From contig NZ_QUNG01000001.1 in NCBI RefSeq assembly GCF_003387375.1, positions 270,510-334,509 on the forward strand: a DNA stretch of 64,000 nucleotides, in the 5' to 3' direction. The notes beneath the pieces were generated by a model that worked only from the letters and a program-made list of their open reading frames with translations, did no database searches and was not told the origin of the DNA. Positions within the stretch are counted from its first letter, which is position 1. Each line of letters begins with the position of its first letter. The stretch comes from Marinomonas pollencensis. Its GTDB lineage: Bacteria; Pseudomonadota; Gammaproteobacteria; Pseudomonadales; Marinomonadaceae. Made by a program: the position numbers and the translations under genes. Shown here one piece after another: positions 1 to 42,030 of this stretch.

Positions 1-1
1 A

Positions 2-520
2 GGTGGGTTTTATTTAGGCAACAGTGCAAGAGAGCGCAACTGGGCTACTCCAGGGGGTAAAGCCATTGTTCACACTCATTCTCTGCCAGAATCTATCTTG
101 CCTAAAAAGGCACAAGACCTAGCCTCTGACAGCACCCTGGTGCTGCAGACCTTGCGCTCACATGACCAGTACAACACGACCATCTATGGCATGGATGACC
201 GCTATCGTGGCATTAAGGGCGAACGCCAAGTGTTGTTCATTAACCCTGCGGATATTAAACGCTTAGGCTATCAAGAAGGCGACACCGTCACCCTTCGTTC
301 ATTATGGGACGATGGTGTAGAGCGTAAAGTCAGCGGTTTTAAGTTGGTTCCTTACAGTATTCCTGCCGGCAATATTGCAGCATACTACCCTGAAACCAAC
401 CCATTGGTACCGCTCAATAGCCATGGCGAGTTCAGCTACACTCCAACCTCAAAAAGCATCGCGATTGAGCTAGAACCCTACCAAGAGCCAGCCTCTAAAA
501 TTGCTTCGGTAGCGAACTAA
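2..520 (+). CDS. FdhF/YdeP-type molybdopterin oxidoreductase, C-terminal part
   Basis: The open frame runs in from the left edge without a start, so only the C-terminal 172 codons or so are present. It reads as the molydopterin-dinucleotide-binding barrel of a formate-dehydrogenase-like oxidoreductase: a conserved stretch near the start contains GNSAREN-like spacing (residues GNSARERNW), then a domain with INPADIKRLGYQEGD, typical of this barrel, and a final PLVPLNSHGEFSYTP segment typical of YdeP/FdhF-alpha homologues. The family is cytoplasmic and binds a molybdenum cofactor; the substrate of YdeP-type members is not settled, and they are linked to acid resistance in enterobacteria. The catalytic part lies outside the window, so active-site residues cannot be judged. 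Confidence 0.8.
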   Translation, partial: GGFYLGNSARERNWATPGGKAIVHTHSLPESILPKKAQDLASDSTLVLQTLRSHDQYNTTIYGMDDRYRGIKGERQVLFINPADIKRLGYQEGDTVTLRSLWDDGVERKVSGFKLVPYSIPAGNIAAYYPETNPLVPLNSHGEFSYTPTSKSIAIELEPYQEPASKIASVAN

Positions 521-540
521 AATCAATATAACAAGGCAAT

Positions 541-580
541 AAAAAAAGCCTCACGCCAGATAAAAGTCTGGTATGAGGCT
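541..580 (-). terminator. Intrinsic terminator of the lipoprotein gene
   Basis: Hairpin with arms at 547-559 and 566-580 (AGCCTCA..CCAGA paired with TCTGG..TGAGGCT). A run of seven A at 541-547 gives the U-tract on the minus strand, so it best serves the lipoprotein gene ending at 636. It may also slow transcription leaving the oxidoreductase on the plus strand. Confidence 0.75.
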
Positions 581-635
581 AATTAATCAACGGAGTAAAT
601 AGGATTAATTTAAAAGAGTTTTCATAAAAACTCGA

Positions 636-1052
636 TTAAACCTTGGTTTCATTGTTAACTAAACACTCTTCTTTTTTGTGTAATACAACAGTTGTATTAC
701 TATCATATTTCCACATATTACCGGTTGCCCAATCAATGCCAAATCCATATATATTCAGGATATTAGCCCAGTAAGATGGGGTAACATGTTTCTTTATAGT
801 CGTTACAGTTCTGTCATAACATTTGTCTGTTACAGTCACTTTAACACCTTCATTTGAAGGAGAAGCAACGACTGTCGCTGGAAGTCTTGTAGGGTATAGC
901 CCATCACTAGATTGGACCTCAACTTTGACGCCTTCTTGACTATCAGATCCTCTTACCATCATTGTCTGACTGCCATTATTAAACATAGTAGAACAACCCG
1001 AAAGTAATACTATCGATGAAAGTAGCGCCAGCTTGATTTTAAGTTTTGACAT
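636..1052 (-). CDS. Small lipoprotein, PEGA-like/uncharacterised
   Basis: 138-residue lipoprotein precursor. The start at 1052 (MSKLKIK) is preferred over an upstream frame extension to 1121 because it opens a textbook lipoprotein signal: positive n-region, hydrophobic core and lipobox LSGC with the cysteine at about residue 20. An AGGGAT ribosome site lies just upstream. The mature part has a beta-rich region with VKVEVQSSDG and ATVVASPSNEGVKVTV, then WANILNIYGFGIDWATGNMWKYD. The G-x-G-x-D-x-x-T-G-x-x-W-x-Y pattern occurs in many small proteobacterial lipoproteins of unknown role. It is likely anchored in the outer membrane by inference from the family; no function is claimed. It stands alone with its own terminator. 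Confidence 0.75.
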   Translation of the reverse strand: MSKLKIKLALLSSIVLLSGCSTMFNNGSQTMMVRGSDSQEGVKVEVQSSDGLYPTRLPATVVASPSNEGVKVTVTDKCYDRTVTTIKKHVTPSYWANILNIYGFGIDWATGNMWKYDSNTTVVLHKKEECLVNNETKV

Positions 1053-1250
1053 TTCATATATCCCTAAAAAATCCATATTAAAAAAGACCAAATTAAAAGT
1101 AAATAAGTCACAAAAATACAATTATAAACAACAGCCTACTAATTCATACTCCCTTATTATTAACACCTAAGTTATTTTATAGCGTTCAATCCAATTTATA
1201 AAATTCATTTTTTAGCACCCACTAACTTTCCAGCTAACAAATAAACAATA

Positions 1251-2705
1251 CTAATGACGCCAAAGCACCGGAAAAAACAACACCAGCACAGTAAAGTACT
1301 CTAAACGCCCTAAAATCATCGCAAAGCTCATCATCCAAGTGCCGGTGTCAGTGAGCGGCGCAAAGCTACTGCCGAGCTCAGCAAAGCCTGGCCCAAGCAC
1401 ATTTAAACAAGCTGCAGTAGCGCTCAATGCCGCCACGAAACTGACGCCTGTGGTCATCAACAAGATGGTAAATAGCATGGTAGTGAGCGCGGCTAAACAC
1501 ATGAACCCCATTACCGAATGACGCACATCCGCACTGATGGTTCGACCCTGAAACTTCATCGCAAACACCCCATTAGGATGCACCAAACGTTTTAGCTCCA
1601 ACCCCACTGACTTTAACGAGATTATATTTCGAATCACCTTGTTGCCTCCGGCAGTGGATCCTGCACAGCCACCAATGTAACCAACAAAGATCAACACCAC
1701 CGCGGTTAACGCAGGCCACGCACTTAAGTCAGTGGCGGCAAATCCGGTACTAGTGATAAACGAAATAACATGAAAAAACGACTCGGTAAACGCGCCACCA
1801 AGCGTGGCGTCTGCACCTTTTTGGTAGAGATAAAAAGCCAACAAACAAGCAATCACAAAGACGATCAGCAAAAACGCTCGCATCTCTTCATCACGCCAAT
1901 ACAAGCGTATATTTTTTGCTAAATAGACCCGATAATGCAACGCAAAATTGGTCGCCCCTAAGAGCATAAACACATTACAAATCCACAATAATAAGGTGCT
2001 ATGAAAATACCCCATACTGGCGTCATGGGTTGAAAAACCACCCGTAGAAACGGTTGAAAGACTGTGCCCTATGGCATCAAACACAGACATGCCTGCAAGG
2101 TAATAACACAACGCACACAGGACAGTAATTGTCAGGTATACAAGCCATAAATAGTGGGTCGTGCTGGCAACTCGAGGCGAGAGTTTTTCATCTTTAATTG
2201 GCCCTGGCGTTTCTGCTTTCAATAGCCGCATACCACCAATGTTAAGCATGGGCAGAATCGCTACCACAAAAATCACCACACCTAACCCACCCATCCATTG
2301 TAAAAACTGGCGATACATCAAAAAGCTAGGCGGCATATCATCCAAACCAGATAGCACAGTAGCGCCCGTAGTGGTTAATGCACTAATGGACTCAAACACG
2401 CCATCAGTAAAAGTCACATGGGCGATGGTAATGATAGGAATGGCGCCAAGCACACCGACAGCTAACCAAGTTAAGCTCGCGAACAACATGGCTTCACGGG
2501 AAGAAACGGACGGCAGCTGGTACTTTTTAAAAGCAACAAGTAGCACTAAGGAAACGCCTAATGTGATGGACGCAGGCATGACAAAATTATTGGCTACATG
2601 GTCTTTGAACAACATAAAAGACAGCTCGCCAAACACCAACTGCACTAACCCCATCCACAAACAAGGCATGGTCAATAATCTCAGGACTAATAGAGGCCGA
2701 ATCAT
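1251..2705 (-). CDS. trkH: Trk potassium uptake protein TrkH
   Basis: 484-residue polytopic inner-membrane protein, the usual TrkH length. It takes up K+ in symport or channel mode together with the NAD-binding TrkA, which is not in this window. Four pore-like segments are recognisable, including TTTGATVLSG near residue 115, STVSTGGFSTHD near 220, TSTGFAATD near 320 and GGCAGSTAGGNKVIRN near 350; the STGG/TGF pattern is the selectivity filter of the family. The C-terminus LGRLEYFTVLVLF is characteristic. The ATG at 2705 is chosen over a TTG at 2714 because AGGAG then sits at usable spacing. Transcribed alone, away from the TRAP operon. Confidence 0.93.
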   Translation of the reverse strand: MIRPLLVLRLLTMPCLWMGLVQLVFGELSFMLFKDHVANNFVMPASITLGVSLVLLVAFKKYQLPSVSSREAMLFASLTWLAVGVLGAIPIITIAHVTFTDGVFESISALTTTGATVLSGLDDMPPSFLMYRQFLQWMGGLGVVIFVVAILPMLNIGGMRLLKAETPGPIKDEKLSPRVASTTHYLWLVYLTITVLCALCYYLAGMSVFDAIGHSLSTVSTGGFSTHDASMGYFHSTLLLWICNVFMLLGATNFALHYRVYLAKNIRLYWRDEEMRAFLLIVFVIACLLAFYLYQKGADATLGGAFTESFFHVISFITSTGFAATDLSAWPALTAVVLIFVGYIGGCAGSTAGGNKVIRNIISLKSVGLELKRLVHPNGVFAMKFQGRTISADVRHSVMGFMCLAALTTMLFTILLMTTGVSFVAALSATAACLNVLGPGFAELGSSFAPLTDTGTWMMSFAMILGRLEYFTVLVLFFPVLWRH

Positions 2706-3108
2706 GGGCGGCAAACTCTCCTATTAAAACGCAGGCATATCGTATCGAAACCCTGTTGCGGCATAGCGCCATCCTTAACGCAAAAAAATCGGCATTAACG
2801 ACAAAGGAAATGAAAACAGCCTTATCTGGCCACAGGATAAAGCTCGGTATAGTACGCCATCAGCGTGCTTTAGAGAAGATTGATCAGATGTGTACGGTAG
2901 CGACCTTTCTCATCCCCCTCTTTCCCATTGCATTATTAATTTTATCGATTCAATCATAATCTCAGCCGATACCGATCATTAGATTTTGTAATCCTTATAG
3001 CCCTTATTTCAAAATCTCCGCTTAATAAAGCGTATGCATAATCATGGCACCAACCCATCAATTTATGCGTAGAAAAAGTCAATAATAAATTTAAAAAGAG
3101 ACTAACTT
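2706..3108. other. Intergenic region trkH-dctP
   Basis: About 400 bases between divergently transcribed trkH and the TRAP operon. It should hold both promoters. A weak 49-codon open frame lies at 2810-2959 (separate entry). I see no convincing sigma54 site, terminator or long inverted repeat. Confidence 0.5.
2810..2959 (+). CDS. Possible small membrane protein
   Basis: 49-codon open frame beginning with an ATG at 2810. The N-terminal half is basic (ALSGHRIKLGIVRHQR) and the C-terminal 20 residues are strongly hydrophobic (TFLIPLFPIALLIL), which would make one membrane helix. AAAGGAA precedes the ATG but only two bases away, closer than a normal ribosome site, and the upstream frame stays open to a TTG at 2756. 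No family is recognised. It is kept as a low-confidence candidate because of the polarity pattern only. Confidence 0.25.
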   Translation: MKTALSGHRIKLGIVRHQRALEKIDQMCTVATFLIPLFPIALLILSIQS

Positions 3109-4134
3109 ATGTCAACTCATATAAAAAAAATTGTCAAAATAGGACTGATAACCCTTATTGCGGGTTCTCTCTCGATTCAGGCTGCCAGCACTTTAGCTAG
3201 TACAAACTTTCGCCTTTCACATTCCGCGCCTCCAGGATCGGATCGAGATATCTGGGCTAAAGAGTTTGCTAAGCAAGTCAAAATCCAGACAGAAGACCGC
3301 GTCACTTTTAGGGTCTACCCTGCTAACCAGTTGGGAGACTGGGAAGAAACCTATGACCAACTATCTCAAGGCTCAATTGATGCTGCAGTCCAATCACTAT
3401 CAACTAAATACGATAAACGTATAGGGATATCTTGGTTTCCATACTCTGTTAGTGATTATAAGTCAGCTGAGCAAGCTTGGAATGTTGGGGGCTTTCTCTT
3501 TGACGTTATGAATGGTCTGTTACAAAAGCAAAATTTAACGCTGCTTGCACCTTATGCGAATGGTATGGGCGGCATGGCAGTAAGTTCTAATGTTGAGCAA
3601 GCCGATAATCCAAATGCGGATCACAAAAATCTTAAAATTCGTGTGTGGCCATCCGGTGCAGCAACTCATCGCCCGGTTCTTGAACGCTTAGGTTACAACA
3701 CAACAACAATGCCTTGGGCAGAGCTCTATACTGGCGTTCAAACTGGCGTTATTGACGGAATGATAGGCGGTACACCTGAAAACGCAGTTCGAGATTGGAA
3801 TGGGATTGTAAAAACATGGGTCCAACTCAATGATCATTTTGAAGTAAATTGGTTAGTAATGAACCAATACTCCATGAGTCGCATATCAGAAAACGACCGT
3901 CAGACCATTCAAAACATTGCTAAAGAGCTAGCTACCGAGCGATTCCAACAGGTCGCTAAATCAGATGAATCATACCGTCAAGAGCTAAAAGACAGCGGCG
4001 TTACTGTTATTACCTTTAATGAGCAGGAGCTAGCCTCTATATCTGATGCGGTCCGTAAAGATGTCTGGCCACACATCAAAGACGAGCTAGGCGATGACCT
4101 CTACCAATTAATGGTAAATCACTACAACGAATAA
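3109..4134 (+). CDS. TRAP transporter solute receptor, DctP type
   Basis: 341-residue periplasmic binding protein of a tripartite ATP-independent transporter. A cleavable signal peptide spans about residues 1-30 (KKIVKIGLITLIAG core, STLA before the mature start). The mature protein begins FRLSHSAPPGSDRDIWA, a typical DctP opening. The ligand region has KIRVWPSG near residue 180, where the family arginine binds a carboxylate, followed by PWAELYTGVQTGVIDGMIGGT. The ligand is therefore expected to be an organic anion, but its identity cannot be read from sequence. It is the first gene of a five-gene operon with dctQ, dctM, a lyase and an MmgE/PrpD protein, which suggests the ligand is their substrate. 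AAGAGA precedes the ATG. Confidence 0.9.
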   Translation: MSTHIKKIVKIGLITLIAGSLSIQAASTLASTNFRLSHSAPPGSDRDIWAKEFAKQVKIQTEDRVTFRVYPANQLGDWEETYDQLSQGSIDAAVQSLSTKYDKRIGISWFPYSVSDYKSAEQAWNVGGFLFDVMNGLLQKQNLTLLAPYANGMGGMAVSSNVEQADNPNADHKNLKIRVWPSGAATHRPVLERLGYNTTTMPWAELYTGVQTGVIDGMIGGTPENAVRDWNGIVKTWVQLNDHFEVNWLVMNQYSMSRISENDRQTIQNIAKELATERFQQVAKSDESYRQELKDSGVTVITFNEQELASISDAVRKDVWPHIKDELGDDLYQLMVNHYNE

Positions 4135-4144
4135 ATTTCACCAG

Positions 4145-4177
4145 ACTGAGTCATTCCATAAAAGTTGGAATGGCTTA
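4145..4177 (+). terminator. Intercistronic hairpin dctP-dctQ
   Basis: Inverted repeat with core arms CATTCCA (4152-4158) and TGGAATG (4166-4172), extended imperfectly by CTGAG/CTTAG. A mixed T-rich stretch follows. Probably a partial terminator or mRNA-stabilising hairpin that lets the abundant receptor be made in excess over the permease; this role is inference. Confidence 0.45.
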
Positions 4178-4229
4178 GTGTTAGTTTAAAAACTGACGCT
4201 TAGGATTTTATATATTAGAGGTCAAAATC

Positions 4230-4751
4230 ATGACAACTATTAAGACATCGATTTCCTTTTTCATCGCTCTATGGCATCTTAAATTACGTCTACAGCAATG
4301 GGTTATGTTCAGTACCAGCATTGCTTTTACCTTACTTGTATTTATACAAGTAATCTCTCGATACATATTCGACTATTCTTTTTTTGGTATTGAAGAAGCC
4401 GCAAGTTATCTAGCCATCATTTTATATTTTATTGGCGCAGCCTATGGAACACACGCAAAAGGGCATATATCGGCTAGCATTGTCGATTCACTTTGCCACC
4501 CTGGACGCTTTGTTAATGCCAGCCATGTAATCACATGCTTAATCTCTACATTTCTATGTATCTATTTATGTACAGAAACATGGGAACTAGTGCAATTCAA
4601 TTTAAAAATGGACGTTCGCTCTGTCGAGTTACGCATACCAATAGCTTGGATTTATATAGGTATGCTTACAGGTATGATTCTAATGGCATTCTATTTTTTC
4701 ATCGAGATGATCGAAGCTTTCTGCCACTTATTAAAACGCCATATTAGCTGA
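4230..4751 (+). CDS. TRAP transporter small permease, DctQ type
   Basis: 173-residue membrane protein with about four hydrophobic helices, the normal DctQ architecture. Features seen are VISRYIFDYSFFGIEEAASYLAI near residues 42-70, the family pattern of an arginine-aromatic step followed by a glutamate pair, and GAAYGTHAKGHIS, matching the G-x-x-x-x-x-x-x-x-H-I loop. It forms the membrane complex with DctM encoded 10 bases downstream and receives substrate from the receptor. A GAGGTC ribosome site lies upstream. Confidence 0.88.
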   Translation: MTTIKTSISFFIALWHLKLRLQQWVMFSTSIAFTLLVFIQVISRYIFDYSFFGIEEAASYLAIILYFIGAAYGTHAKGHISASIVDSLCHPGRFVNASHVITCLISTFLCIYLCTETWELVQFNLKMDVRSVELRIPIAWIYIGMLTGMILMAFYFFIEMIEAFCHLLKRHIS

Positions 4752-4761
4752 GGATATTACC

Positions 4762-6066
4762 ATGAGCTCTATTGTTTTATGGGACGTTGCATTATTAATA
4801 ACACTGATGATGATTGGTGTTCCTGTTGCATTAACCTTTGTCGCTGCAGCACTATTTCTAATCGTTATGGGAGATTATGGGAATACCTCATTTATGATTA
4901 CTGCAGGATTCGCTAAAACCTCTTCTATGGTTTTACTGGCGATTCCTCTTTATATCCTTGCTGGCTCTATTATGACGAATGGAGGGATAGCCAAACGCTT
5001 ACTTGATGTGGCGGACAGCCTTTTTGGACACTATCGTGGAGGCCTTGGGGTTGTTACGGTTGTCACTACCGCCGTTTTTGGTGCGATTTCAGGGATGGCA
5101 TCTTCCGCTGTCGCAGCTATTGGCTCAATTATGATTCCACGAATGGTGGAGAAAGGTTACGATCGAGGTTACGCCACTTCTCTAGTCGCTTGCTCCGCTG
5201 TTCTTGCGCTACTCATTCCACCTAGCGCCACGATGATTTTATATGGCTGGGTCACCAGCACATCAATCACAGCGGTGTTTCTTGCCCCTGTCTTACCGGC
5301 TTTGTTATTAATTTCTCTATTTTGCTTTTGGAATTTCGTGTTAACTCGAAAAATGCCTCTGGTGATTGAGAAAAAAGTCAGCTTTAAAGAAGCAAAAGAA
5401 AATATCTTCTTAAAAACCCGCAAAGCTGGTTTTGGCCTGGCCATGCCAGTCATCATCTTGGGCTTTATTTATGGTGGCGTCACTACACCGACTGAAGCTG
5501 CGGCCGTCGCTGTTATGTACGCTGTACCTGTAGCTTTTTGGGTGTACAAAGATATGACATGGGGGTCCTTTTATGAAGCTGTTTGGAAAGCAGCGCAAGT
5601 TACTGCGGTACTTATGCTAGTCATATTTTGTGCCACTATGTTAGCCCGAGTACTTACCTTTGAAGATGTCCCTCAGCAAATACTGACCACGTTATTATCG
5701 ATTACTGAAAATAAAATTCTGCTACTTCTCTTAGTCAATTTATTTTTACTAATGGTTGGTATGTTTATGGAAGATGTTTCAGGAATATTATTAGCAGCAC
5801 CTTTACTGATGCCCGTCATGAATGAAATTGGTGTTCACCCTGTGCATTTTGCAGCAATAATTGGCACAAACTTAGGAATGGGATTAATAACACCGCCTAC
5901 CGCACCAATACTATATTTTGGAACATTAGTAGGGGGAGTAAAACTGCCACAAGTTATTAAACCAACACTTGTGTTTGTATTTCTCGCTTATCTCCCTGTT
6001 GTTTTGTTGACCACTTTCATTCCAGAGCTTGCCTTATGGCTTCCTCGCCTAGTCACCGGACTTTAA
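4762..6066 (+). CDS. TRAP transporter large permease, DctM type
   Basis: 434-residue polytopic protein with about 12 hydrophobic segments, the usual DctM/SiaM length. It is the sodium-coupled transport subunit. Signature stretches include GGIAKRLLDVADSLFGHYRGGLG near residue 75, ISGMASSAVAAIGSIMIP near 110, LIPPSATMILYG near 150, and the second-repeat GLITPPTAPILYFG near 375. GAGGAT precedes the ATG. Ten bases separate it from dctQ, and about 100 from the lyase gene. Confidence 0.92.
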   Translation: MSSIVLWDVALLITLMMIGVPVALTFVAAALFLIVMGDYGNTSFMITAGFAKTSSMVLLAIPLYILAGSIMTNGGIAKRLLDVADSLFGHYRGGLGVVTVVTTAVFGAISGMASSAVAAIGSIMIPRMVEKGYDRGYATSLVACSAVLALLIPPSATMILYGWVTSTSITAVFLAPVLPALLLISLFCFWNFVLTRKMPLVIEKKVSFKEAKENIFLKTRKAGFGLAMPVIILGFIYGGVTTPTEAAAVAVMYAVPVAFWVYKDMTWGSFYEAVWKAAQVTAVLMLVIFCATMLARVLTFEDVPQQILTTLLSITENKILLLLLVNLFLLMVGMFMEDVSGILLAAPLLMPVMNEIGVHPVHFAAIIGTNLGMGLITPPTAPILYFGTLVGGVKLPQVIKPTLVFVFLAYLPVVLLTTFIPELALWLPRLVTGL

Positions 6067-6165
6067 TTAATAAAATAAAAAAGCCATTAATAACGGCTCC
6101 TCATATAATTTTTTAGTAACACTATTATTAAAAAAGTAACTTATAGATTAGCTTGGAGATTCACG

Positions 6166-7593
6166 ATGCGCATTGAAAATGATGCTTTAGGTAAACGAGA
6201 AATAAAAAATGAACTGTATTATGGGATTCAAACACTTCGCGCTAAAGAAAACTTCTCTGTATCAGGTAAAACAATTTTCGACATTCCTTACTTTGTAGAA
6301 AGTATTGTTCAGATTAAAAAGGCTGCCGCTCTTGCAAATCATCAAATAGGAGCATTAGATAACTCTGTGTGTAAGGCTATCTGTCAGGCAGCCGATGATG
6401 TTTTAACACAGCCGGATCGCCAAGATTTTATTATAGATATTTACCATGGCGGAGGCGGTACCTCTGCCAACATGAATGTGAATGAAGTACTAGCAAACCG
6501 AGCTAATGAAATACTTACTGGTAGCAAAGGGTATGACAATGTACACCCAAACACCCATGTCAATATGGGACAATCAACAAATGATGTGATCCCTGCTGCA
6601 ATGAAAATGGCGGTATATCATTCATTATTCCAACTCTGCCAGGCTTTGCAACATTGCATTACATCATTAGAGAAAAAAGAGGCTGAATTTAACGAGATCG
6701 TCAAACTGGGGCGTACATGCTTCCAAGATGCGTTACCAATTACTCTCGGACAACAATTCAGCGGCTATCGAAATGCATTTGTTAGAATGCTTAAGGATGT
6801 TCAACAGGCTCAATTACTCTGTCTAGAACTTCCTTTATCTGCAACCGCAGTAGGGACTGAATTTGGGACTTTCCCTGGCTACAAAGAATGGGTTTACCGA
6901 ACCCTAGAAGAAACCACTTCTATTCAGTGGAGAGCAGAAAAGAACCTTTTCGATGGATTACAAAATGCGGATCTATGGCTAAAAATCTCAGCAACTCTAA
7001 AAGCTGTTGCACTTAACCTACATAAGCTTGCTGGAGACCTGCGCCTCATGTCTTCTGGGCCTCGCGCTGGTTTAGGTGAAATAACACTACCTGCAGTACA
7101 ACCCGGTTCATCTATTATGCCAGGTAAAGTAAATCCAGTTGTTCCCGAAATGGCAATGCAGGTATATTTTCGTGTTTTAGGCAATGACGTCGCCATTAGC
7201 CGTGCTTGCGAAGGGGAGTTAGACCTTAATGTTTGGGAGTCTCTTATTCTTAATTGTACAACGGAATCTTGTAATCTCTTAACTTCTTGCATTCCTCTGC
7301 TTATGGAAAAGTGCGTCGATGGCATTATCGCTAATAAAGAAAAGTGCCTAACAGATGCGGAACAATCGTTAGCGCTATCGACCGTTATCGCAACGCTGTT
7401 TGATTATCAAACAGCGTCAAGACTGGCGAAACAAGCAGAAGCTGAAAGTAAGACAATTAAACAAGTAGTTATCGAAAATAAGCTCATGTCTAAATCAGAA
7501 GCTGAAACATATTTAGACCCATTAATGATGACCTCGCCCCACCGCTTCAATCAATTATTTAGCAAAAAACGGAGCACCAAAGATGGCCACTAA
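6166..7593 (+). CDS. Aspartase/fumarase-superfamily lyase (AspA-like)
   Basis: 475 residues, almost exactly the length of aspartate ammonia-lyase. Motifs in order: YYGIQTLRAKENF (residues 18-30), GGTSANMNVNEVLANRA near 100, NVHPNTHVNMGQSTNDVIP near 130, GRTCFQDALPITLGQQ near 185, and the superfamily signature GSSIMPGKVNPVVPE near 320, whose first serine is the catalytic base in the family. The enzyme should eliminate an amine, ammonia or alcohol across a succinyl backbone to release fumarate. It is most like aspartase, but fusion of its operon to a TRAP transporter and an MmgE/PrpD gene argues for a substituted substrate such as iminodisuccinate. GGAG precedes the ATG, and the 3' end overlaps the next gene by 11 bases, so translation is probably coupled. 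Confidence 0.85.
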   Translation: MRIENDALGKREIKNELYYGIQTLRAKENFSVSGKTIFDIPYFVESIVQIKKAAALANHQIGALDNSVCKAICQAADDVLTQPDRQDFIIDIYHGGGGTSANMNVNEVLANRANEILTGSKGYDNVHPNTHVNMGQSTNDVIPAAMKMAVYHSLFQLCQALQHCITSLEKKEAEFNEIVKLGRTCFQDALPITLGQQFSGYRNAFVRMLKDVQQAQLLCLELPLSATAVGTEFGTFPGYKEWVYRTLEETTSIQWRAEKNLFDGLQNADLWLKISATLKAVALNLHKLAGDLRLMSSGPRAGLGEITLPAVQPGSSIMPGKVNPVVPEMAMQVYFRVLGNDVAISRACEGELDLNVWESLILNCTTESCNLLTSCIPLLMEKCVDGIIANKEKCLTDAEQSLALSTVIATLFDYQTASRLAKQAEAESKTIKQVVIENKLMSKSEAETYLDPLMMTSPHRFNQLFSKKRSTKDGH

Positions 7594-8968
7594 CACCCCT
7601 ATATTGAATCAGGCCGCTAATTTTCTAGCCAACCTAGAATACGAAAAGCTACCAGTGGACGTAACCGAATCTGCTAAACGCGCTATTCTAGACTATATCG
7701 GCGTTTCCATTCCCGGTAGTCAACAGCCTGTTGCACAAAATCTATTTGCTTGGGCAGAAAAAAGAAACTGGGGGAAAACTGCTACAGTGATTGGCCGTAA
7801 GATTAAAATGGCCCCAGAAAATGCCGCATTAATTAATGCGGCATCAGGACACGCTTTGGACTTTGACGACACAAGTTGGTCAACTATAGGACATCCCACA
7901 ACCGTTATTTTCCCAGCAATTTTAAGTTTGGCGGAAGAATATAACTGCACGGGTAAGCAAACACTACTTGCCTACATTGCAGGCTTAGAAGTTGCTCATA
8001 AAATAGCCGACCTTATGATGCCAGAAGCGTCTGAAAATGGCTGGCATACAACCGGAATTTTTTACACACTTGGCACTGCAGCAGCAGCCTGCCAACTACT
8101 ACAATTAGCGAAGGAGCAATCCGCTTTATGTATGGCACTTGCACTTTCTAAGTCGAGCGGTATAAGAAGTAACTTTGGCACTCAAGCTAAGCCTTATCAC
8201 GCAGGGATGTCTGCTAAAGCAGGGCTTGAAGCCGTCAGCCTCACATTAAGCGGCATAAACTCTTCACCTACCGCACTAGAAGATGAAGATGGTTTTATTC
8301 AATGCTATGCAAGCAGTGAACTAGCAAAAATCGTAAAAAACATGGCAAAGCCCGTTTTATTCGGATCCCCTTGGGATATAACACATAGAGGTTACGCCTT
8401 TAAAAAATACCCTAATTGCAGTGGCAATCACCCTGCTTGTGACGCCATATTAGAATGGCTTAATAAAAACCCTACCCCTATAGAGGATATTGCCTCTATA
8501 CATTGTGGTGTAAGCTTGCTTGGCCCTAAAGAACTTGTTTGTGATCAGCCTAAAACTCCTACCGAGGCAAGGTTTTCAATTCAGTTTTCTTTGGCCTGCG
8601 CCCTAACCTATGGAAAAATTACTCTTTCTGAGTTTACAGATGAGATTATTCTATCACCTCATATACAAGAGCTTATGTCTCGCATTACCATGGGAGTAGA
8701 CCAAGATTTAGCAAGGCTGGGTTTTATTGGAACCGCACCTGTCAAAATATGGATTACAAAAGTATCCGGTGAGGAAATTTATCTCGAAAACAATTTAGCC
8801 CATGGGAATCCTGAGAAGCCATTTTCTGATAATGAGTTTAATGCAAAGTTTCTGAGTTGCTGTCATGAACTAATAACAAGAGAGCAAGCGGAATTACTAT
8901 TAAAAGACATTTACCAACTTGACAAAGTAAAAGATATAAAAAAAATAACCAACCAGCTTTGTTTTTAA
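7583..8968 (+). CDS. MmgE/PrpD family protein (dehydratase/epimerase/decarboxylase)
   Basis: 461-residue member of the family containing 2-methylcitrate dehydratase PrpD, cis-aconitate decarboxylase and iminodisuccinate epimerase. Seen: DYIGVSIPGS near residue 35, NAASGHALDFDDTSW near 90 (the conserved A-H-x-x-D-x-D-D active-site segment), HPTTVIFPAILSLAE, and FKKYPNCSGNHPACDAILEW near 275, the family K-x-Y-P-x-C-x-x-x-H motif. The 11-base overlap with the lyase implies they act on the same compound. In iminodisuccinate degraders an epimerase of this family prepares substrate for a fumarate-forming lyase; that assignment here is inference, and decarboxylation or hydration of an aconitate-like acid remains possible. 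Confidence 0.85.
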   Translation: MATNTPILNQAANFLANLEYEKLPVDVTESAKRAILDYIGVSIPGSQQPVAQNLFAWAEKRNWGKTATVIGRKIKMAPENAALINAASGHALDFDDTSWSTIGHPTTVIFPAILSLAEEYNCTGKQTLLAYIAGLEVAHKIADLMMPEASENGWHTTGIFYTLGTAAAACQLLQLAKEQSALCMALALSKSSGIRSNFGTQAKPYHAGMSAKAGLEAVSLTLSGINSSPTALEDEDGFIQCYASSELAKIVKNMAKPVLFGSPWDITHRGYAFKKYPNCSGNHPACDAILEWLNKNPTPIEDIASIHCGVSLLGPKELVCDQPKTPTEARFSIQFSLACALTYGKITLSEFTDEIILSPHIQELMSRITMGVDQDLARLGFIGTAPVKIWITKVSGEEIYLENNLAHGNPEKPFSDNEFNAKFLSCCHELITREQAELLLKDIYQLDKVKDIKKITNQLCF

Positions 8969-9010
8969 TCCAGACAAAATTAACTAGAAAGCTTTTACTT
9001 TTACAAATAA

Positions 9011-9028
9011 AGGGGGAAGTAACCCCCT
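9011..9028. terminator. Shared hairpin between convergent genes
   Basis: AGGGGG (9011-9016) pairs with CCCCCT (9023-9028) around a six-base loop, in the 66-base gap between the convergent MmgE/PrpD and LysR genes. The flanks are T-rich on each strand rather than pure U-tracts, so bidirectional termination is likely but not certain. Confidence 0.5.
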
Positions 9029-9034
9029 ATTTCA

Positions 9035-10048
9035 TCACTTTATCTTATCGATCAACTCTATTGCATTATTGTCAATAACAATCTCATTATTGATGGAAGA
9101 AAATTTTTTCATTATTTCAGGAAGCAATACAGTTTTCAGCTGAAACGCACATTGCGCTAGTATTGACTCAACTAATGGCTGATATTCATTCTTTCGAGTA
9201 ATCACGTAAATTTCCCGAGTATAAGATGGCTGCGGTGCTGCTTGAATATGAATTTTTTCCAGTTTATTAGAACACTGCATCAAGCATAGAGGAGAACAAA
9301 GCCCCCACCCTAAACCATCTTCTATCATTGATAACACAACACTGGTCGTATCCGCTTCTGCTCGACTTGGTACAGTCATCCTCATTCTAGAAAAGTGTGT
9401 TTCCGCAATACGCCCTGAAGAAGAACGCGTTGAGTACTTTACAAATGATAAATCCGAATTTATTAGTTTTTGCCAGCTTATTTTTTCACCTACTAATTCT
9501 GATTTTTTTGGCAATACTAATAAATGAGGCTCTTGACATAAAAAATATCGACTTAAACCATTCACACCATCCAAAGAATCACAGGTTATAATTATATCTA
9601 CTTCTTTATTAATTAAATCATTTGCAATATTAGGAGAAATACCACTCAACACTGAGACCTGACGAGTTTGCCCAGAGAGCATTCGAATCAACGCTGGAGC
9701 AATATTCGAAGACAGCGAATCAATCACCCCAATTTTCACAATAGGCTTTAACTCATTCCTTTCACGTATTTCTTCCACAGCTTGTTCGATATCAAAAAAC
9801 TGTTTCTCCAAAAGCTCTTGTAATATGATTGCCTCAGGCTTTGGTGTAATTGGTCTTACATCTCTATCAAACAATAAAACCTCAAGGCTCTCTTCTAACT
9901 TCTGAATATTTTGAGACACTGAAGACTGACTTAAATTAAGTACTTTAGCCGCTTTAGTAAAGCTCCTATATTGGCAGACAGCAAGAAACACATTTAATGT
10001 CGAACTATATAAAACTGAATGGATTTCATCTCGTGAATTTAAAGGCAT
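9035..10048 (-). CDS. LysR-family transcriptional regulator
   Basis: About 337 residues. The N-terminal winged helix-turn-helix reads FLAVCQYRSFTKAAKVLNLSQSSVSQNIQKLEESL, a standard LysR signature, and the remainder is a periplasmic-binding-like effector domain starting near residue 95 (KIGVIDSLSS). The ATG at 10048 is preferred to a TTG at 10060 because GAGAG sits six bases upstream. It converges on the TRAP/lyase operon and ends 66 bases from it, so it is a likely local regulator of that operon, although LysR genes are more often divergent from their targets. The effector would plausibly be the imported acid; this is inference. Confidence 0.85.
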   Translation of the reverse strand: MPLNSRDEIHSVLYSSTLNVFLAVCQYRSFTKAAKVLNLSQSSVSQNIQKLEESLEVLLFDRDVRPITPKPEAIILQELLEKQFFDIEQAVEEIRERNELKPIVKIGVIDSLSSNIAPALIRMLSGQTRQVSVLSGISPNIANDLINKEVDIIITCDSLDGVNGLSRYFLCQEPHLLVLPKKSELVGEKISWQKLINSDLSFVKYSTRSSSGRIAETHFSRMRMTVPSRAEADTTSVVLSMIEDGLGWGLCSPLCLMQCSNKLEKIHIQAAPQPSYTREIYVITRKNEYQPLVESILAQCAFQLKTVLLPEIMKKFSSINNEIVIDNNAIELIDKIK

Positions 10049-10360
10049 AAACACTCTCAAATAAGATATTATTACAAATAATACAACACCCTATCGATAT
10101 CGTCTTGCAGTCTTACTTAAGTGATGCATTTAAATGGATCAAGTCTCTAAAAAAAGTGAAACAGAACGACCTGCGATAAGACCTACAAGAAACCACCTCA
10201 ATAATCATTTTATTGATTTCCTAAAAAAACACCCATCACATTCTGTTCTTACAGGAAATAACTGCTAATATTCACCAGTTTCCTACCTCCACCCCCAGCA
10301 ATCGCTTACTGGGGGTGTTTGTGATTACCATGAATTAATAACAGGCTCACCATGGGCTAT
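10049..10360. other. Intergenic region with terminator
   Basis: About 310 bases with the LysR promoter at the left end and the terminator of the potF-like gene at the right (10290-10317). No open frame of interest or repeat was seen between them. Confidence 0.4.
10290..10317 (-). terminator. Terminator-like hairpin after potF-like gene
   Basis: CACCCCCAG (10290-10298) pairs perfectly with CTGGGGGTG (10309-10317) around a ten-base loop. A short TTTGTG follows on the plus strand and no clear U-tract on the minus strand. Its position 44 bases past the minus-strand stop codon supports a terminator for that gene. Confidence 0.55.
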
Positions 10361-11485
10361 TTATTGCCCGGTTTTGACCTGCATCCATAAACGCGTCATT
10401 AGCCGGTCAATTTTAGGACCACGTAGCTTTTGCGTGAACAAGCGCTTTTTCACTTCTGCGGAAGGGTAAATACTTGGGTTGTTTGAGATTTCTTGGTCTT
10501 GTAGTTCCGTCGCTTTTAGATTCGGGTTCGCATACGCGACATAGTTGGTCACTTCAGCAATAACCTCCGGCTCCATTAAATAATTAATGAAGGCCAAAGC
10601 GGCATCTGTGTTCTTAGCCCCTTTTGGAATGCCCAACATATCAAACCAAATTTGCGTACCTTCTTTTGGAATGCTGTACTCAACCTCGACGCCATTATCT
10701 GCCTCAGCAGCACGATCTTGCGCTTGAATTACATCGCCAGACCAACCAATGGCGACGCAGATATCACCATTTGCCAGCGCGCTAATATAAGCCGAAGAAT
10801 GGAACTGGCTTACATAAGGGCGAACCGAATCAAGCAGTTTTACCGCTGGGCTATCGAGGGCGTAATCTTTCGGATTACGGGTATTTGGGTCCATGCCAAG
10901 ATAGTTTAGCGCCAGTGGATAAAGCTCATCAGGCGAGTCCAAGAACATGACACCACATTGCTGTAATTTCTTCATGTTTTCAGGTTTAAATACCAAGTCC
11001 CAGCTGTCTACCGGGGCGTCTTTGCCCAACACTTCTTCGACTTTTTTCTTGTTATAACCAATGCCGGTCGTGCCCCATAAATAAGGCACACCGTATTGGT
11101 TGCCCGGATCAGCATTTTGTAAATATGAGAGCAATTCTGGATCGATATTTTTCAAGTTAGGCAGCTTAGATTTATCCAGTTTTTGAAACGCCCCAGCTTG
11201 AATCTGACGCCCCATAAAAGAAGCGGTTGGCACCACTAGATCATAGCCAGAGCTGCCAGCCAGCAACTTGGCTTCGAGCACTTCATTACTATCAAACACA
11301 TCCGCCACCACCTTGATGCCAGTTTGCTTCTCGAAATTCTCAATCGTATGCTCACCAATGTAATCTGACCAGTTAAAGAATTTCAGTTCTTCTTGTGCCA
11401 AACCTGTTATAGGCGTGGCCACGGCGGCCATCATAGCCAATGGCGATATAATACGTTTAAACGAATGGGATAAAGCGCTTTTCAT
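10361..11485 (-). CDS. Polyamine-type ABC transporter substrate-binding protein (PotF-like)
   Basis: 374-residue periplasmic receptor. The signal peptide (SFKRIISPLAMMAAVATP core) ends near GLAQ, followed by EELKFFNWSDYIGEHTIENFEKQTGI, the classic PotF/PotD opening. Other family stretches are YDLVVPTASFMGRQI, YGVPYLWGTTGIGYN and GDICVAIGWSGDV, the last being part of the polyamine pocket. ATG 11485 is chosen over GTG 11500 because GAGG is nine bases upstream. The permease and ATPase genes are not adjacent. Seventy bases downstream of a gamma-glutamylputrescine-synthetase-like gene on the same strand, so putrescine is the most likely ligand. Confidence 0.88.
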   Translation of the reverse strand: MKSALSHSFKRIISPLAMMAAVATPITGLAQEELKFFNWSDYIGEHTIENFEKQTGIKVVADVFDSNEVLEAKLLAGSSGYDLVVPTASFMGRQIQAGAFQKLDKSKLPNLKNIDPELLSYLQNADPGNQYGVPYLWGTTGIGYNKKKVEEVLGKDAPVDSWDLVFKPENMKKLQQCGVMFLDSPDELYPLALNYLGMDPNTRNPKDYALDSPAVKLLDSVRPYVSQFHSSAYISALANGDICVAIGWSGDVIQAQDRAAEADNGVEVEYSIPKEGTQIWFDMLGIPKGAKNTDAALAFINYLMEPEVIAEVTNYVAYANPNLKATELQDQEISNNPSIYPSAEVKKRLFTQKLRGPKIDRLMTRLWMQVKTGQ

Positions 11486-11555
11486 ACCTGTATGCCTCAC
11501 TTTGTGGTGGTAGAGTGTCTGTCTTTGCTATCTCAATATCAATTCACGATGACAA

Positions 11556-12896
11556 CTATACATTCAATAAAAGGTGCTCACGTTCCCAAGAACTGATCAC
11601 TTTATTGAACGTTTCAAACTCACTGCGTTTAACGCCAATATAGGCATCCACGAATTGCTGACCCATGATGTTGCAGATTTCAGGGCAGTCTTCTAGTAAG
11701 CGCAGTGCTTCTTCCAAGGTTCGTGCCAACTCAATTTCCTCGATTTCAATGGCAGCTTCTTCACCCGATGGTTCTGTCGGACGAAGCTTTTCCTTAATGC
11801 CCAAATAGCCGCACGCCAAGCTTGTCGCAATCGCCAAATAAGGGTTGCAATCGGAACCAGGAAAACGGTTTTCAATACGAAAGGCTTCTGGCGATGATGC
11901 TGGTATGCGCAACCCTGCGGTGCGATCATCAATGCCCCATTTCATGTTTACCGGTGCCGCCATTTCGGGCGCAAAACGACGGTATGAATTCACATTCGGT
12001 GCAAAGAAGCTAATCGCATTAGGCGTGTATTTTTGCAGTCCGCCTAGGTAGTTATAGAAGGCTTCGCTGTATTTACCATTATCATTGAAGATATTTTTGC
12101 CCGTTTTAATATCAATCAAACTTTGGTGAATATGCATTGCGCTGCCAGGCTCATTTTGCATTGGCTTGGCCATAAAGGTAGCGTGAATATCATGCTTAAT
12201 TGCTGTTTCGCGCATCGTTCGTTTAAACACAAAAACCTGATCAGCCAAATCCAGCGGATCGCCGTGCAAAAAGTTAATTTCCATTTGCGCGGCACCGGAC
12301 TCGTGGATCAAAGTGTCTACATCCAAGTTTTGCGCTTCACAATAGGCGTATAAGGTATCAATCACTGGGTTAAATTCGTTCGCCGCATCGATACTGTAAG
12401 AACGGCGTGCCGTTTCCCTGCGACCAGAACGCCCCGCTGCTGGCTTTAATTCATAATCGGGGTCGTTGTTTTTTTGGATCAGATAAAACTCCATTTCCGG
12501 CGCAATAACAGGCCGCAATCCCTCTTTTTCAAACAAACTTAAGACATGTCGTAAAATGGTTCTGCTGGCCAATGGGTGTGGTTTGCCATCCGTGTCATAG
12601 CAATCATTTATCACTTGCGCCGTCGGCTCATCGGCCCAAGGAACAATGCGCAAGGTATTGGTATCAGGGACTAAGATCATATCTCGATCGCGAGCATCGA
12701 CAATGTCATAATGGTTATAAGCCCAATCCCCTGTCACACTTTGCACCAGAACCGTTTCAGGTAAGCGCCCCTCTTCCTCGGATAAAAACTTACGCGTAGG
12801 ATAAAACTTACCCCTCGCATTCCCCGTCATATCAGGCAGCGTAGACTCAATTTCTGTAATCCCATTTGCTTTAAGGAAATCCTCTAGGACACCCAT
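11556..12896 (-). CDS. puuA: Glutamine-synthetase-family gamma-glutamylpolyamine synthetase (PuuA-like)
   Basis: 446 residues, glutamine synthetase fold. Catalytic-domain landmarks are APEMEFYLI near residue 120 (metal-binding glutamates), ESGAAQMEINFLHGDPLDLADQ near 205, GSAMHIHQSL near 250 (the conserved histidine), and NSYRRFAPEMAAP near 310, RIENRFPGSDCNPYLA near 345. It is of the GS-like type that conjugates glutamate to amines rather than ammonia; the neighbouring FAD amine oxidase and polyamine receptor support gamma-glutamylputrescine synthesis, first step of the Puu route. AAGG lies upstream of the ATG. It shares a divergent promoter region with the oxidase. Confidence 0.85.
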   Translation of the reverse strand: MGVLEDFLKANGITEIESTLPDMTGNARGKFYPTRKFLSEEEGRLPETVLVQSVTGDWAYNHYDIVDARDRDMILVPDTNTLRIVPWADEPTAQVINDCYDTDGKPHPLASRTILRHVLSLFEKEGLRPVIAPEMEFYLIQKNNDPDYELKPAAGRSGRRETARRSYSIDAANEFNPVIDTLYAYCEAQNLDVDTLIHESGAAQMEINFLHGDPLDLADQVFVFKRTMRETAIKHDIHATFMAKPMQNEPGSAMHIHQSLIDIKTGKNIFNDNGKYSEAFYNYLGGLQKYTPNAISFFAPNVNSYRRFAPEMAAPVNMKWGIDDRTAGLRIPASSPEAFRIENRFPGSDCNPYLAIATSLACGYLGIKEKLRPTEPSGEEAAIEIEEIELARTLEEALRLLEDCPEICNIMGQQFVDAYIGVKRSEFETFNKVISSWEREHLLLNV

Positions 12897-13222
12897 ACAT
12901 CACCTTTTGTAGAAATTAACCGTGAATTTATCAATGAAAAACTCTGCACGTTCTTCTTTTAGGGTTAACAAACGCAACCCAAAAGTCGTCAGAGTGTTTC
13001 TCCTTTTGTGTGATCAACTAACAAACAAAAAACCGAATCATCACTCGAATTAAACCCTATTTAATGATGATCAAAAAATCAACAAAAATTTAATAAAAAG
13101 CCTGTATATCACATAATATGGTTTTTTTAATTGAATTATTATTCGGTTTTAATTAAGTTCTAGCGAACATCGGTATATTTGAAAATTCAGCAAAATTTGC
13201 TTACTTAAATTGGGGATAGGCT
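12897..13222. promoter_or_regulatory. Divergent control region puuA/puuB
   Basis: 326 AT-rich bases between the two divergent genes. It carries a widely spaced inverted pair (separate entry) and should contain both promoters. No gene is seen in it. Confidence 0.55.
13029..13150. repeat. Spaced inverted repeat, candidate operator pair
   Basis: AAAACCGAATCAT at 13029-13041 and ATTATTCGGTTTT at 13138-13150 are reverse complements at 12 of 13 positions, about 96 bases apart. Each half would sit near one divergent promoter, a geometry consistent with one repressor binding both sides. Which regulator binds is unknown; the TetR gene at 14558 is the nearest candidate. Confidence 0.5.
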
Positions 13223-14506
13223 ATGAAGAACCATGGTTTTGAAGCGTCATATTACGCTAGCAGCGCGAATCAAACCCTTAGTTTTCCATCATTAGGCGGC
13301 GATATTGAAACCGACGTATGTATTATCGGCGGTGGTTATACTGGGCTGTCTGCCGCCCTTCATTTGGCTGAAAAAGGCTTTCAAGTCACTCTTTTAGAAG
13401 GTCATGTCATTGCTTCAGGGGCATCTGGCCGCAATGGCGGACAAGTTTGCCAAGGGCATAATATGAGCCATGCTGAGCTAACAAAGAAAGCAGGACAAGA
13501 CGCGGCAGACTTGCTCTGGCGGTTATCACTCGAGTCGGTAGAATTAGTCAAAGCCTTGATCAAAGAATATCGTATAGACTGTGACTATAAACCTGGCGTA
13601 CTGCACGTTGCCTCAAAAGCCTCTCATGTGGACGATATCCGCAATGCGGTGGACTACAAAAGAAACCATCTAGGATACGATAAAGTTGACTATCTTGATG
13701 CCCAAGCGGTGGCAGAAAAGCTCGGCACCACGCACTTTCATGGTGGTGAATATTATCGTGACGCGGGCCATCTTCACCCACTCAATTATGCTCTTGGGCT
13801 AGCCAAAGCAGCGCTAGAGAAAGGTGCAACCTTGTATGAAAGAACCCAAGTTATTGATTATAAAGCGGGCGACAACCCATCGGTACGCACATCAAAAGGC
13901 ACTGTAAAGGCGAAATATCTTTTATTTGCTTGCAATGGATACCTTGGCAACTTGAATCAAAATGCCGCAAAGAAAATAATGCCAATCAATAACTTCATGA
14001 TAGCAACCGAACCTTTACCTGAGGCAGTGTATAGCCGCATAAACCCACAAGACGTGGCCATTGCAGACTCCAAGTTTGTGATTAACTACTTTCGCCTTTC
14101 TGCGGACAAACGCATGTTGTGGGGGGGAGGTGAAAACTACAGCTCGCGCTTTCCTAAAGACATAGGCGCCTTTGTTCAAAAGCACATGGTGAGTATTTAC
14201 CCCGAACTAAAAAGTGCCAATATTGATTTTAGTTGGGGAGGCACTCTGGCGATAACGCTCAACCGCATGCCGTACTTTGGCCATCAAGAAAAAAATGTCT
14301 TTTTAGCACAAGGCTATTCAGGTCATGGTGTTGCTCTGGCCACATTAGGCGGCAAACTGATGGCAGAAGCGGTAAGTGGAACCGCCGAAAGGTTCGATGT
14401 TTTTTCCAAGGTACCTAGCGCAAATTTCCCTGGCGGGACCCTGCTACGCTGGCCTGGACTCGTGGCCGGTATGCTCTATTACTCATTGCGAGATCGCTTA
14501 TCCTAA
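13223..14506 (+). CDS. puuB: FAD-dependent gamma-glutamylputrescine oxidase-like protein (PuuB-like)
   Basis: 427-residue DAO-fold flavoprotein. The N-terminal dinucleotide-binding motif IIGGGYTGLSAALHLAEKG lies at residues 35-53, followed by VTLLEG, and ASGASGRNGGQVCQGH near 70 is the FAD-contacting segment typical of PuuB/OrdL oxidases. The C-terminal GTLAITLNRMPYFG and FLAQGYSGHGVALATLGGKL complete the fold. It would oxidise gamma-glutamylputrescine to the aldehyde, releasing ammonia and hydrogen peroxide. GGGGATAGG precedes the ATG. Divergent from puuA and 51 bases before a TetR gene. Confidence 0.87.
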   Translation: MKNHGFEASYYASSANQTLSFPSLGGDIETDVCIIGGGYTGLSAALHLAEKGFQVTLLEGHVIASGASGRNGGQVCQGHNMSHAELTKKAGQDAADLLWRLSLESVELVKALIKEYRIDCDYKPGVLHVASKASHVDDIRNAVDYKRNHLGYDKVDYLDAQAVAEKLGTTHFHGGEYYRDAGHLHPLNYALGLAKAALEKGATLYERTQVIDYKAGDNPSVRTSKGTVKAKYLLFACNGYLGNLNQNAAKKIMPINNFMIATEPLPEAVYSRINPQDVAIADSKFVINYFRLSADKRMLWGGGENYSSRFPKDIGAFVQKHMVSIYPELKSANIDFSWGGTLAITLNRMPYFGHQEKNVFLAQGYSGHGVALATLGGKLMAEAVSGTAERFDVFSKVPSANFPGGTLLRWPGLVAGMLYYSLRDRLS

Positions 14507-14557
14507 TCCTGCGACTAAGGTACAATAGCAGCGCCCTGCACCCATAAAGGTTAGACT

Positions 14558-15235
14558 ATGCCGAACAAAAGCAGCAAAAACACAGTGATGCCAGATGACG
14601 GTCAAAAACAAGATCTAGCACCACGTAATGAACCGGTGCAAAGTCGCTCAATTCGCCGCTCAAAACAAATTATTGATGTGACCGGTGAGCTCTTAGAGCG
14701 GGTTGGTTTAGATGATTTAAATACCATTATCATAGCAAAAGAAGTCGGCATATCTATTGGCTCTCTCTATCACTATTTTCCTAATAAATACGCTATTTTG
14801 TATGCCATGGGTAGTCGCTGGCTAGAAAGTATCGATGCCGTCTTTATGGAAGTGCTGCGCTGGCCCTTAGAGGAGTTAGCACTCAGCGAGCTGATCGACA
14901 AAATTCTCGCTATTCATCTAAAAACCTACAAAAAGCAAAAAGCCATTTTGACCTTGGTTCAAGCTATGTTTTCTGTGAAGGAGCTGCGCGAACTGGACGC
15001 ACAACACGACGACCTAGTGATTCGTCAGATGTCTGAAGTTTTCAAGCGTATTGGCCTACAGCGACATATTCGTGAAAGAGAGCGTATTGCCCGCCTCTAC
15101 CTTGAAGTGACACACAGTACTTTTCTCGTGGTTGTTAACCAAAATGAAAACCGCGCAAAGCGCACTCTCAATGATCTAAAAAGAATGATTGAAAGCCTTT
15201 TAGCCCACCATCTTAGCAACTCGCAAGAGCGCTAA
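14558..15235 (+). CDS. TetR-family regulator
   Basis: 225 residues. The DNA-binding domain lies at about residues 29-80, with RSKQIIDVTGELLERVGLDDLNT and VGISIGSLYHYFPNKYAIL, the canonical TetR recognition helix. The rest is helical, as in ligand-binding TetR domains. A leader of about 28 polar residues precedes the domain. AAAGG lies before the ATG. It follows puuB by 51 bases and ends inside its own terminator, so it is probably co-transcribed with puuB and may control the polyamine genes; this is inference. Confidence 0.85.
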   Translation: MPNKSSKNTVMPDDGQKQDLAPRNEPVQSRSIRRSKQIIDVTGELLERVGLDDLNTIIIAKEVGISIGSLYHYFPNKYAILYAMGSRWLESIDAVFMEVLRWPLEELALSELIDKILAIHLKTYKKQKAILTLVQAMFSVKELRELDAQHDDLVIRQMSEVFKRIGLQRHIRERERIARLYLEVTHSTFLVVVNQNENRAKRTLNDLKRMIESLLAHHLSNSQER

Positions 15236-40768: not shown

Positions 40769-40874
40769 TAGAAGATTTTACAGTGCGGCCGTCGTCTTGG
40801 GTTTCATTCACACCCATCACGTCTGCAAAGGATGCACCACAATGAAAGACAATAAAAATAATAGGATTACACTC

Positions 40875-41933: not shown

Positions 41934-41958
41934 CTCTATTTGACACTCTGTTTAGTGA

Positions 41959-41993
41959 GTCGGCATGGAAGCACCTTCCATGCCGACGTTTTT
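41959..41993 (+). terminator. Strong intercistronic terminator-like hairpin dctP-dctQ
   Basis: GTCGGCATGGAA (41959-41970) pairs perfectly with TTCCATGCCGAC (41976-41987) around a five-base loop, and GTTTTTT follows. It is a complete intrinsic terminator inside the operon, 26 bases after dctP. Most likely it lets much more receptor mRNA than permease mRNA be made. Confidence 0.8.
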
Positions 41994-42030
41994 CACTGGG
42001 TGCTTGCGCCTAGAATCAAAGGAGAAAAGT

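Follow-up and report, generated by a model that had tools for sequence, protein, structure and literature searches.

A six-gene cassette in Marinomonas pollencensis pairs an aspartase/fumarase-superfamily lyase with an MmgE/PrpD protein and may serve a substituted aspartate

In a 64,000-nucleotide stretch of the Marinomonas pollencensis genome (contig NZ_QUNG01000001.1, positions 270,510 to 334,509; hereafter the window), a cassette of six genes was found that encodes a TRAP transporter, a lyase of the aspartase/fumarase superfamily, a protein of the MmgE/PrpD family and a LysR-type regulator. Judged by its residues, the lyase-MmgE set does not qualify as a plain aspartase or, by the tyrosine test, as an iminodisuccinate (IDS) epimerase, because a cysteine occupies the amine-contact position in all 11 lyases of this kind and the second-base tyrosine is missing in all eight proteins of the MmgE group. 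The explanation tentatively preferred here is that the cassette could take up a substituted aspartate and cleave it by beta-elimination to fumarate, with the MmgE protein acting on the same succinyl core.

The five plus-strand genes proposed in a first-pass annotation were borne out, in coordinates and in family, by the open reading frame (ORF) list and by Pfam, all five proteins exceeding the cut-offs of their families. They encode the TRAP solute-binding protein DctP (3109-4134; PF03480, 142 bits), the small permease DctQ (4230-4751; PF04290, 87 bits) and the large permease DctM (4762-6066; PF06808, 302 bits), so that the transporter is complete in its P, Q and M components, followed by the lyase (6166-7593; 475 aa; PF00206 and PF10415) and the MmgE/PrpD-family protein (7583-8968; 461 aa; PF03972 and PF19305). 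That annotation had stopped at these five genes, all of which stand, and had omitted the convergent LysR-type gene on the minus strand (9035-10060; PF00126 and PF03466), which is part of the unit because it is missing from the same spot in all seven loci compared from relatives.

The six genes form a cassette, since TrkH and PotF adjoin without them in two close relatives. In loci L077 (genome G1769) and L078 (genome G1775), TrkH lies immediately next to PotF, at a distance of 282 and 357 bases, respectively; identity to the window is 95.5% for PotF, 94.5% for TrkH and 97.8% for a glutamine-synthetase-like protein in L077, and 87.3, 90.3 and 94.4% in L078. When window positions 1-14600 were compared by blastn, L077 matched to 2751, at 2842-2886 and then from 10362, and L078 matched to 2751 and then from 10357, which places the cassette at approximately 2887-10356. 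Among five more loci, L079-L083, which cover 9.4 to 16 kb each in genus mates, TrkH adjoins the glutamine-synthetase-like gene in L079 and L080, whereas other genes lie past PotF in L081 and L082 and past the glutamine-synthetase-like gene in L083. None of DctP, DctQ, DctM, the lyase, MmgE and LysR had a match at E <= 1e-20 in any of the seven loci. The flank at 10361-14506 encodes a PotF-like binding protein, the glutamine-synthetase-like protein and a flavin adenine dinucleotide (FAD) oxidoreductase; it is probably a polyamine catabolism locus and is kept in several relatives.

Both enzymes are rare. With cut-offs between 1e-120 and 1e-130, the lyase was detected in one of 194 genomes of the order (its own), two of 398 of the phylum (its own and G613), five of 247 in the family to which G613 belongs and one of 385 in the class of G613, and seven genus mates of another sample held no match at E <= 1e-120. 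In three samples of 111, 99 and 63 genomes, MmgE was found at E <= 1e-80 in 3, 2 and 1, respectively, and at E <= 1e-60 it was found four times in 369 genomes of its own class, namely the window gene and three others at 32-35% identity. The locus comparison alone cannot tell gain from loss, yet this rarity favours a gain here over losses in the relatives, and a mobile catabolic cassette that moves between genomes is most likely.

The association of the lyase with MmgE exceeds chance, since the pair recurs at three loci elsewhere and the six proteins are all missing from the seven loci of relatives. MmgE adjoins the lyase in 4 of the 11 lyase loci, with a TRAP carrier in the window and in Motiliproteus coralliicola (L012), an amino-acid ABC carrier in L053 and a Dcu carrier in L021. 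The M. coralliicola locus has the same gene order (identity of 74% for the lyase, 62% for MmgE, 69% for LysR, and 79, 76 and 92% for DctP, DctQ and DctM), and carries between dctM and the lyase gene a single-domain asparaginase-family ORF (8048-8563 of L012; 171 aa; PF00710, 62 bits) where the window has just 99 bases. L053, from genome G1300 of the same family, has a lyase at 70%, an MmgE at 55% and a divergent LysR at 53% identity; its amino-acid-type ABC importer was recognized by the binding protein (PF00497), the other parts being judged by eye. In Photobacterium sp. DA100 (L021), an MmgE at 42% overlaps a lyase at 54%, beside a divergent LysR (29%) and the Dcu-family carrier.

Where lyase and MmgE are not neighbours, an asparaginase-family gene follows the lyase in L040 and L041 (in L041 by likeness) and lies about 6 kb off in L044, the genes of L040 and L044 passing Pfam or coming near but below the type II cut-off. 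In L042 the lyase is flanked by two FAD amine-oxidase-like genes and then a RidA-family gene, and similar surroundings were seen in L019 (by annotation) and L043 (by likeness). M20 genes lie near the lyase in L020 (by annotation) and L044, the latter also with a cystathionine-beta-lyase-like gene that falls under its equivalog cut-offs. On the MmgE side, the Cocleimonas locus L011 holds DadA-like and Asp/Glu-racemase-family genes, with importer genes recognized by eye, while in L051 (G1201, from the genus of Methylobacterium planeticum) the neighbours are an SBP_bac_3 protein and a FAD protein of the DAO family, and L052 (G1202, same genus) looks alike. The amino-acid ABC, FAD amine-oxidase, RidA and asparaginase neighbours fit an aspartate-derived nitrogen compound. 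A further lyase match, L029, has in-frame stops at residues 459 and 468 of 475; it was not taken as a broken gene, as the match is interrupted only at its C-terminal end.

In a tree of 25 sequences, the 11 lyases formed one branch (support 100/100) outside the nine aspartase-type and five fumarase-type sequences. All 11 keep AspB positions 101, 140-142, 187, 318, 319, 321, 324, 326 and 331, which include carboxylate-binding and base residues (the base being Ser315 in the window), yet AspB His188 is a cysteine in all 11 (Cys185 in the window; the aspartase-type rows have Gln in eight of nine and His in one) and AspB Ala99 is a glycine in all 11. According to PMC11744663, His188 and Asn142 of AspB also interact with the product amine; with His188 replaced by cysteine here, the altered side appears to be that of the leaving group. 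The protein missed the cut-offs of the AspA equivalog TIGR00839 (487.5 versus 681.2 bits) and the class II fumarase equivalog TIGR00979 (406.8 versus 664.75 bits). Its predicted structure (pLDDT, the predicted local distance difference test score, of 87) gave Z scores of 49.6 to 3oce, 48.4 to the aspartate-bound AspB 3r6v and 47.6 to the fumarase C 6nzb. Another gene of the genome, L001, is 39% identical to the window lyase and carries the usual aspartase motifs. The window lyase is thus probably other than the housekeeping aspartase, and the plain aspartase that the first-pass annotation had kept as its alternative was rejected as the main reading, because L001 has those motifs and the window lyase lies outside that branch. 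What that annotation had favoured, an AspA-like lyase with a new substrate variant, agrees with the cysteine, the separate branch and the company of MmgE, whereas the substrate class itself is one that we infer.

The MmgE group was defined by identity (42-64% to the window protein within the group, 26-34% for the remaining sequences) and by shared residues, the tree of 15 rows having long branches and placing the group on one side in 32% of bootstrap trees. His90, Asp93, His104, His155, Lys203 and Lys274 are kept in all eight proteins; by motif they answer to His88, Glu91, His102, His152, Lys202 and Lys266 named for methylsuccinate isomerase in PMC12290011, although the isomerase sequence stood outside the alignment. 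Two bases, His99 and Tyr145, have been proposed for IDS epimerase in PMC7347537, which also gives His277 and Tyr318 for human cis-aconitate decarboxylase (CAD), and Tyr148 has been proposed as the second base of methylsuccinate isomerase (PMC12290011). At this position a tyrosine is present in IDS epimerase, in BsIRG1 (the 'IRG1' protein of B. subtilis), and in the genome's own L010 together with L015, L016 and L017 (four of four other bacterial homologues), while CAD has an aspartate there and has Trp99 in common with the MmgE group.

A reading of MmgE as an IDS epimerase, towards which the first-pass annotation leaned, was not supported: Tyr145 is a serine in all eight proteins, and the window protein, at 26% identity, is no closer to the epimerase than to BsIRG1 (34%) or CAD (27%). 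The comparison of predicted structures proposed with it found a shared fold (model pLDDT 84.4) and gave no discrimination, the Z scores of 42.1 to IDS epimerase (2hp0) and 42.4 to CAD being tied, so that no choice between epimerase and decarboxylase was made by fold. As the tyrosine is missing and the fold scores are indecisive, the protein is not filed as an IDS epimerase by the one testable catalytic feature, which lowers the case for such an epimerase but not that for an activity on a succinyl core. A PrpD of the methylcitrate cycle was also rejected, as the NCBIfam equivalog cut-offs for 2-methylcitrate dehydratase were missed (25.8, 31.5 and 43.6 bits against thresholds of 458, 575 and 950, respectively). 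The genome holds two further MmgE/PrpD genes.

Known MmgE/PrpD substrates have a four-carbon 1,4-dicarboxylate core in common, as stated in PMC12290011. Under the preferred reading, the substrate of the cassette would be such a core, substituted at C2 by an amine or an amino acid, which the TRAP importer would take up as the anion. Ser315 of the lyase would then abstract the C3 proton and the C2 amine would be expelled, so that fumarate is formed and the amine, or amino acid, is set free; the altered ammonia pocket (His/Gln to Cys, Ala to Gly) would suit a leaving group larger than ammonia. MmgE would bind the same succinyl core and shift the C2 proton, by which a stereoisomer unusable by the lyase could enter the pathway, and the LysR regulator would switch the gene set on.

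Several observations weigh against this reading. Ser150 stands in the window MmgE, as a serine does throughout its group, where a second base would be expected. Seven of the 11 lyases (L019 of Rhizobium, L020 of Shinella and L040-L044; stretches of 13 to 21 kb examined) have no MmgE nearby, and four of the eight MmgE proteins have no nearby lyase, with the upstream side of one, L013, cut by a contig end. The fixed lyase differences fall in core motifs in 4 of 11 cases (P value=0.07), and no concentration there is claimed; the broad NCBIfam model PRK12273, named aspartate ammonia-lyase, was passed (548.8 versus 510 bits); and the lyase model has pLDDT <50 at residues 185-187 and 316-319, so that Cys185 is not placed. 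DctP gave no hint of a ligand, its best solved relative scoring only 74 bits, and the asparaginase, M20 and cystathionine lyase neighbours fit other readings as well.

The asparaginase-family genes near the lyase in L012, L040, L041 (by likeness) and L044 (6 kb off) would suit the scavenging of aspartate or asparagine isomers, in which the lyase would be a specialized aspartase on unsubstituted aspartate beside an MmgE acting as a cofactor-free aspartate racemase, or would itself take D-aspartate, with asparaginase feeding it in some relatives. Such scavenging would also be in keeping with the DadA-like and Asp/Glu-racemase-like genes beside MmgE in L011, with the Dcu carrier, of a C4-dicarboxylate family, in L021 and with the retention of every carboxylate contact of the lyase; it is nevertheless unlikely, as the amine-contact His/Gln is a cysteine in 11 of 11 lyases that branch apart from the aspartases, a gene with aspartase motifs (L001) is already in the genome, and a racemase needs two bases, of which the known second one is missing in MmgE. 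The single histidine base, as in dehydratase and decarboxylase branches, could let the MmgE group eliminate the amine from the stereoisomer of a substituted aspartate that the aspartase-fold lyase leaves unused, as a new cofactor-free C-N (or C-X) lyase on the mirror-image substrate; the cassette would then hold two unrelated lyases, and MmgE would act without an aspartase-fold lyase in the Cocleimonas and Methylobacterium genomes, where the best lyase relative elsewhere was 40% identical in Cocleimonas and 39% in M. planeticum (the G1201 and G1202 genomes lying outside the search). This we consider improbable.

A breakdown of S-(2-succino) thioethers is quite unlikely as well. Here the lyase would cleave a fumarate-thiol adduct, with MmgE in the part of YxeQ in yxe/scm-like loci; YxeQ is presumably an MmgE/PrpD protein, and we take BsIRG1 to be YxeQ. 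PMC9706529 describes 2SL, a lyase of the same superfamily, in yxe loci with YxeQ and an ABC importer, and BsIRG1-like plasmid genes, of which nine neighbourhoods among 47 matching records were taken (L055-L063), lie by flavin/nitrilotriacetate-type monooxygenase genes in nine of nine cases and by amino-acid ABC genes in seven; the M20 genes of L020 and L044 agree, as does the cystathionine beta-lyase-like gene of the latter locus. It is kept as a rival only, because the cassette lacks an acetyltransferase or deacetylase (none among the cassette and flank genes, nor by Pfam in the nine proteins scanned), while acetylation is called a conserved step of the yxe/scm pathway in PMC9706529; moreover, FAD amine-oxidase-like and asparaginase neighbours indicate nitrogen, and BsIRG1 keeps the tyrosine that the window's MmgE group is missing. 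Least probable is a carbon-substituted or unsaturated acid (3-methylaspartate, an aconitate-type acid or some other branched dicarboxylate), which MmgE would decarboxylate or dehydrate by means of one base, the lyase then acting on the product. The tyrosine is missing in the MmgE group as in CAD, Trp99 is held in common and the Z scores are tied; against this, relatives have amino-acid importer and amine-oxidase-like neighbours, the lyase is changed at the amine-contact position and not at the carboxylate contacts, and 27% identity to CAD is no higher than to other branches.

Intergenic gaps along dctP-dctQ-dctM-lyase-MmgE are 95, 10, 99 and -11 bases. The 11-base overlap of the last two ORFs (7583-7593) was correctly annotated at first pass, and the description of the genes as tightly spaced applies to this overlap and the gap of 10 but not to the gaps of 95 and 99, in the former of which a stem-loop of 14 pairs is predicted (4145-4179, plus strand) as a possible attenuator. 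A terminator-like stem is predicted downstream of the LysR gene (9010-9028, minus strand). Over 2700-10400 on both strands, 11 promoter-like sites were counted against 20.8 in shuffled sequence, a deficit, and 12 terminator-like sites against 6.2, an excess; on these counts a single transcript for the five plus-strand genes is plausible, with operon spacing that is not uniformly tight. At 40797-44842, a further TRAP-like set, judged by eye to comprise a binding protein and two permeases, one small and one large, is followed by an SDR-like ORF. Elsewhere, 54001-58923 is of low GC content (33.5% at 54-56 kb), with an integrase-like ORF (57448-58467, by eye) and an adjoining tRNA-Leu/Cys/Gly cluster, and looks like an integrated element.

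If the substituted-aspartate reading is true, the lyases would add to the aspartase/fumarase superfamily a third branch whose leaving-group pocket is altered, and one small, testable cassette would link it to an MmgE/PrpD group in which the proton-transfer set differs. The role of YxeQ-type proteins in the breakdown of fumarate adducts would become directly testable, the working idea being that they deal with the stereocentre that the addition of fumarate leaves behind. Lyases able to accept larger amines are of practical use in making N-substituted aspartates.

Among known systems, the iminodisuccinate pathway of Agrobacterium tumefaciens BY6, with an IDS epimerase (2hp0/2hp3) and a C-N lyase, likewise joins an MmgE/PrpD protein to a fumarate-releasing lyase, and the MmgE fold (Z 42.1) and His base (His104 here) are shared; it differs in MmgE sequence (26% identity), in Tyr145 versus Ser150 and in the TRAP importer found here. 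AspA/AspB and class II fumarase share the fold and the carboxylate and base residues with the window lyase, but are ~36-42% identical to it, and the window lyase differs by its separate branch and by the cysteine at the amine-contact position. The yxe/scm cluster also brings together a superfamily lyase, YxeQ (presumably MmgE/PrpD) and a dedicated importer, yet its importer is of the ABC type, it has acetylation and deacetylation genes and a thioether substrate, and BsIRG1 has the tyrosine. As described in PMC9706529, 2SL releases fumarate and N-acetylcysteine from N-acetyl-S-(2-succino)cysteine and can take the place of the monooxygenase YxeK, and yxe loci can also hold YxeQ, of unassigned function, and an ABC importer. 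The first-pass view that such a pair with a dedicated transporter is unassigned missed the S-(2-succino)cysteine precedent of a fumarate-releasing lyase beside YxeQ (PMC9706529), while in the open-licence literature neither an MmgE/PrpD protein with an aspartase-type lyase nor PrpD with TRAP and aspartate ammonia-lyase was found described together; PMC12757645 makes no mention of YxeQ, MmgE, PrpD, racemase or epimer.

Methylsuccinate isomerase is, in PMC12290011, an MmgE/PrpD protein proposed to move the C2 proton of a 1,4-dicarboxylate via His102/Tyr148, as is envisaged here, but it belongs to an itaconate/methylsuccinate cluster and has the tyrosine. The same paper holds that the B. subtilis 'IRG1' protein probably has a function other than cis-aconitate decarboxylase, and the BsIRG1-like plasmid neighbourhoods are a better fit to yxe-type clusters than to itaconate synthesis. 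In the nine of 47 records, no 2SL-type lyase is annotated beside the gene. In pTiEU6, the region for succinamopine, an asparagine-derived opine, brings together importers, asparaginase, LysR and an mmgE gene to which a propionate role was given by the authors (PMC6733357); it differs in having opine-oxidase-type genes, and the word 'lyase' does not occur in that paper. Taken as an analogy, this gene set speaks mildly for aspartyl-nitrogen compounds.

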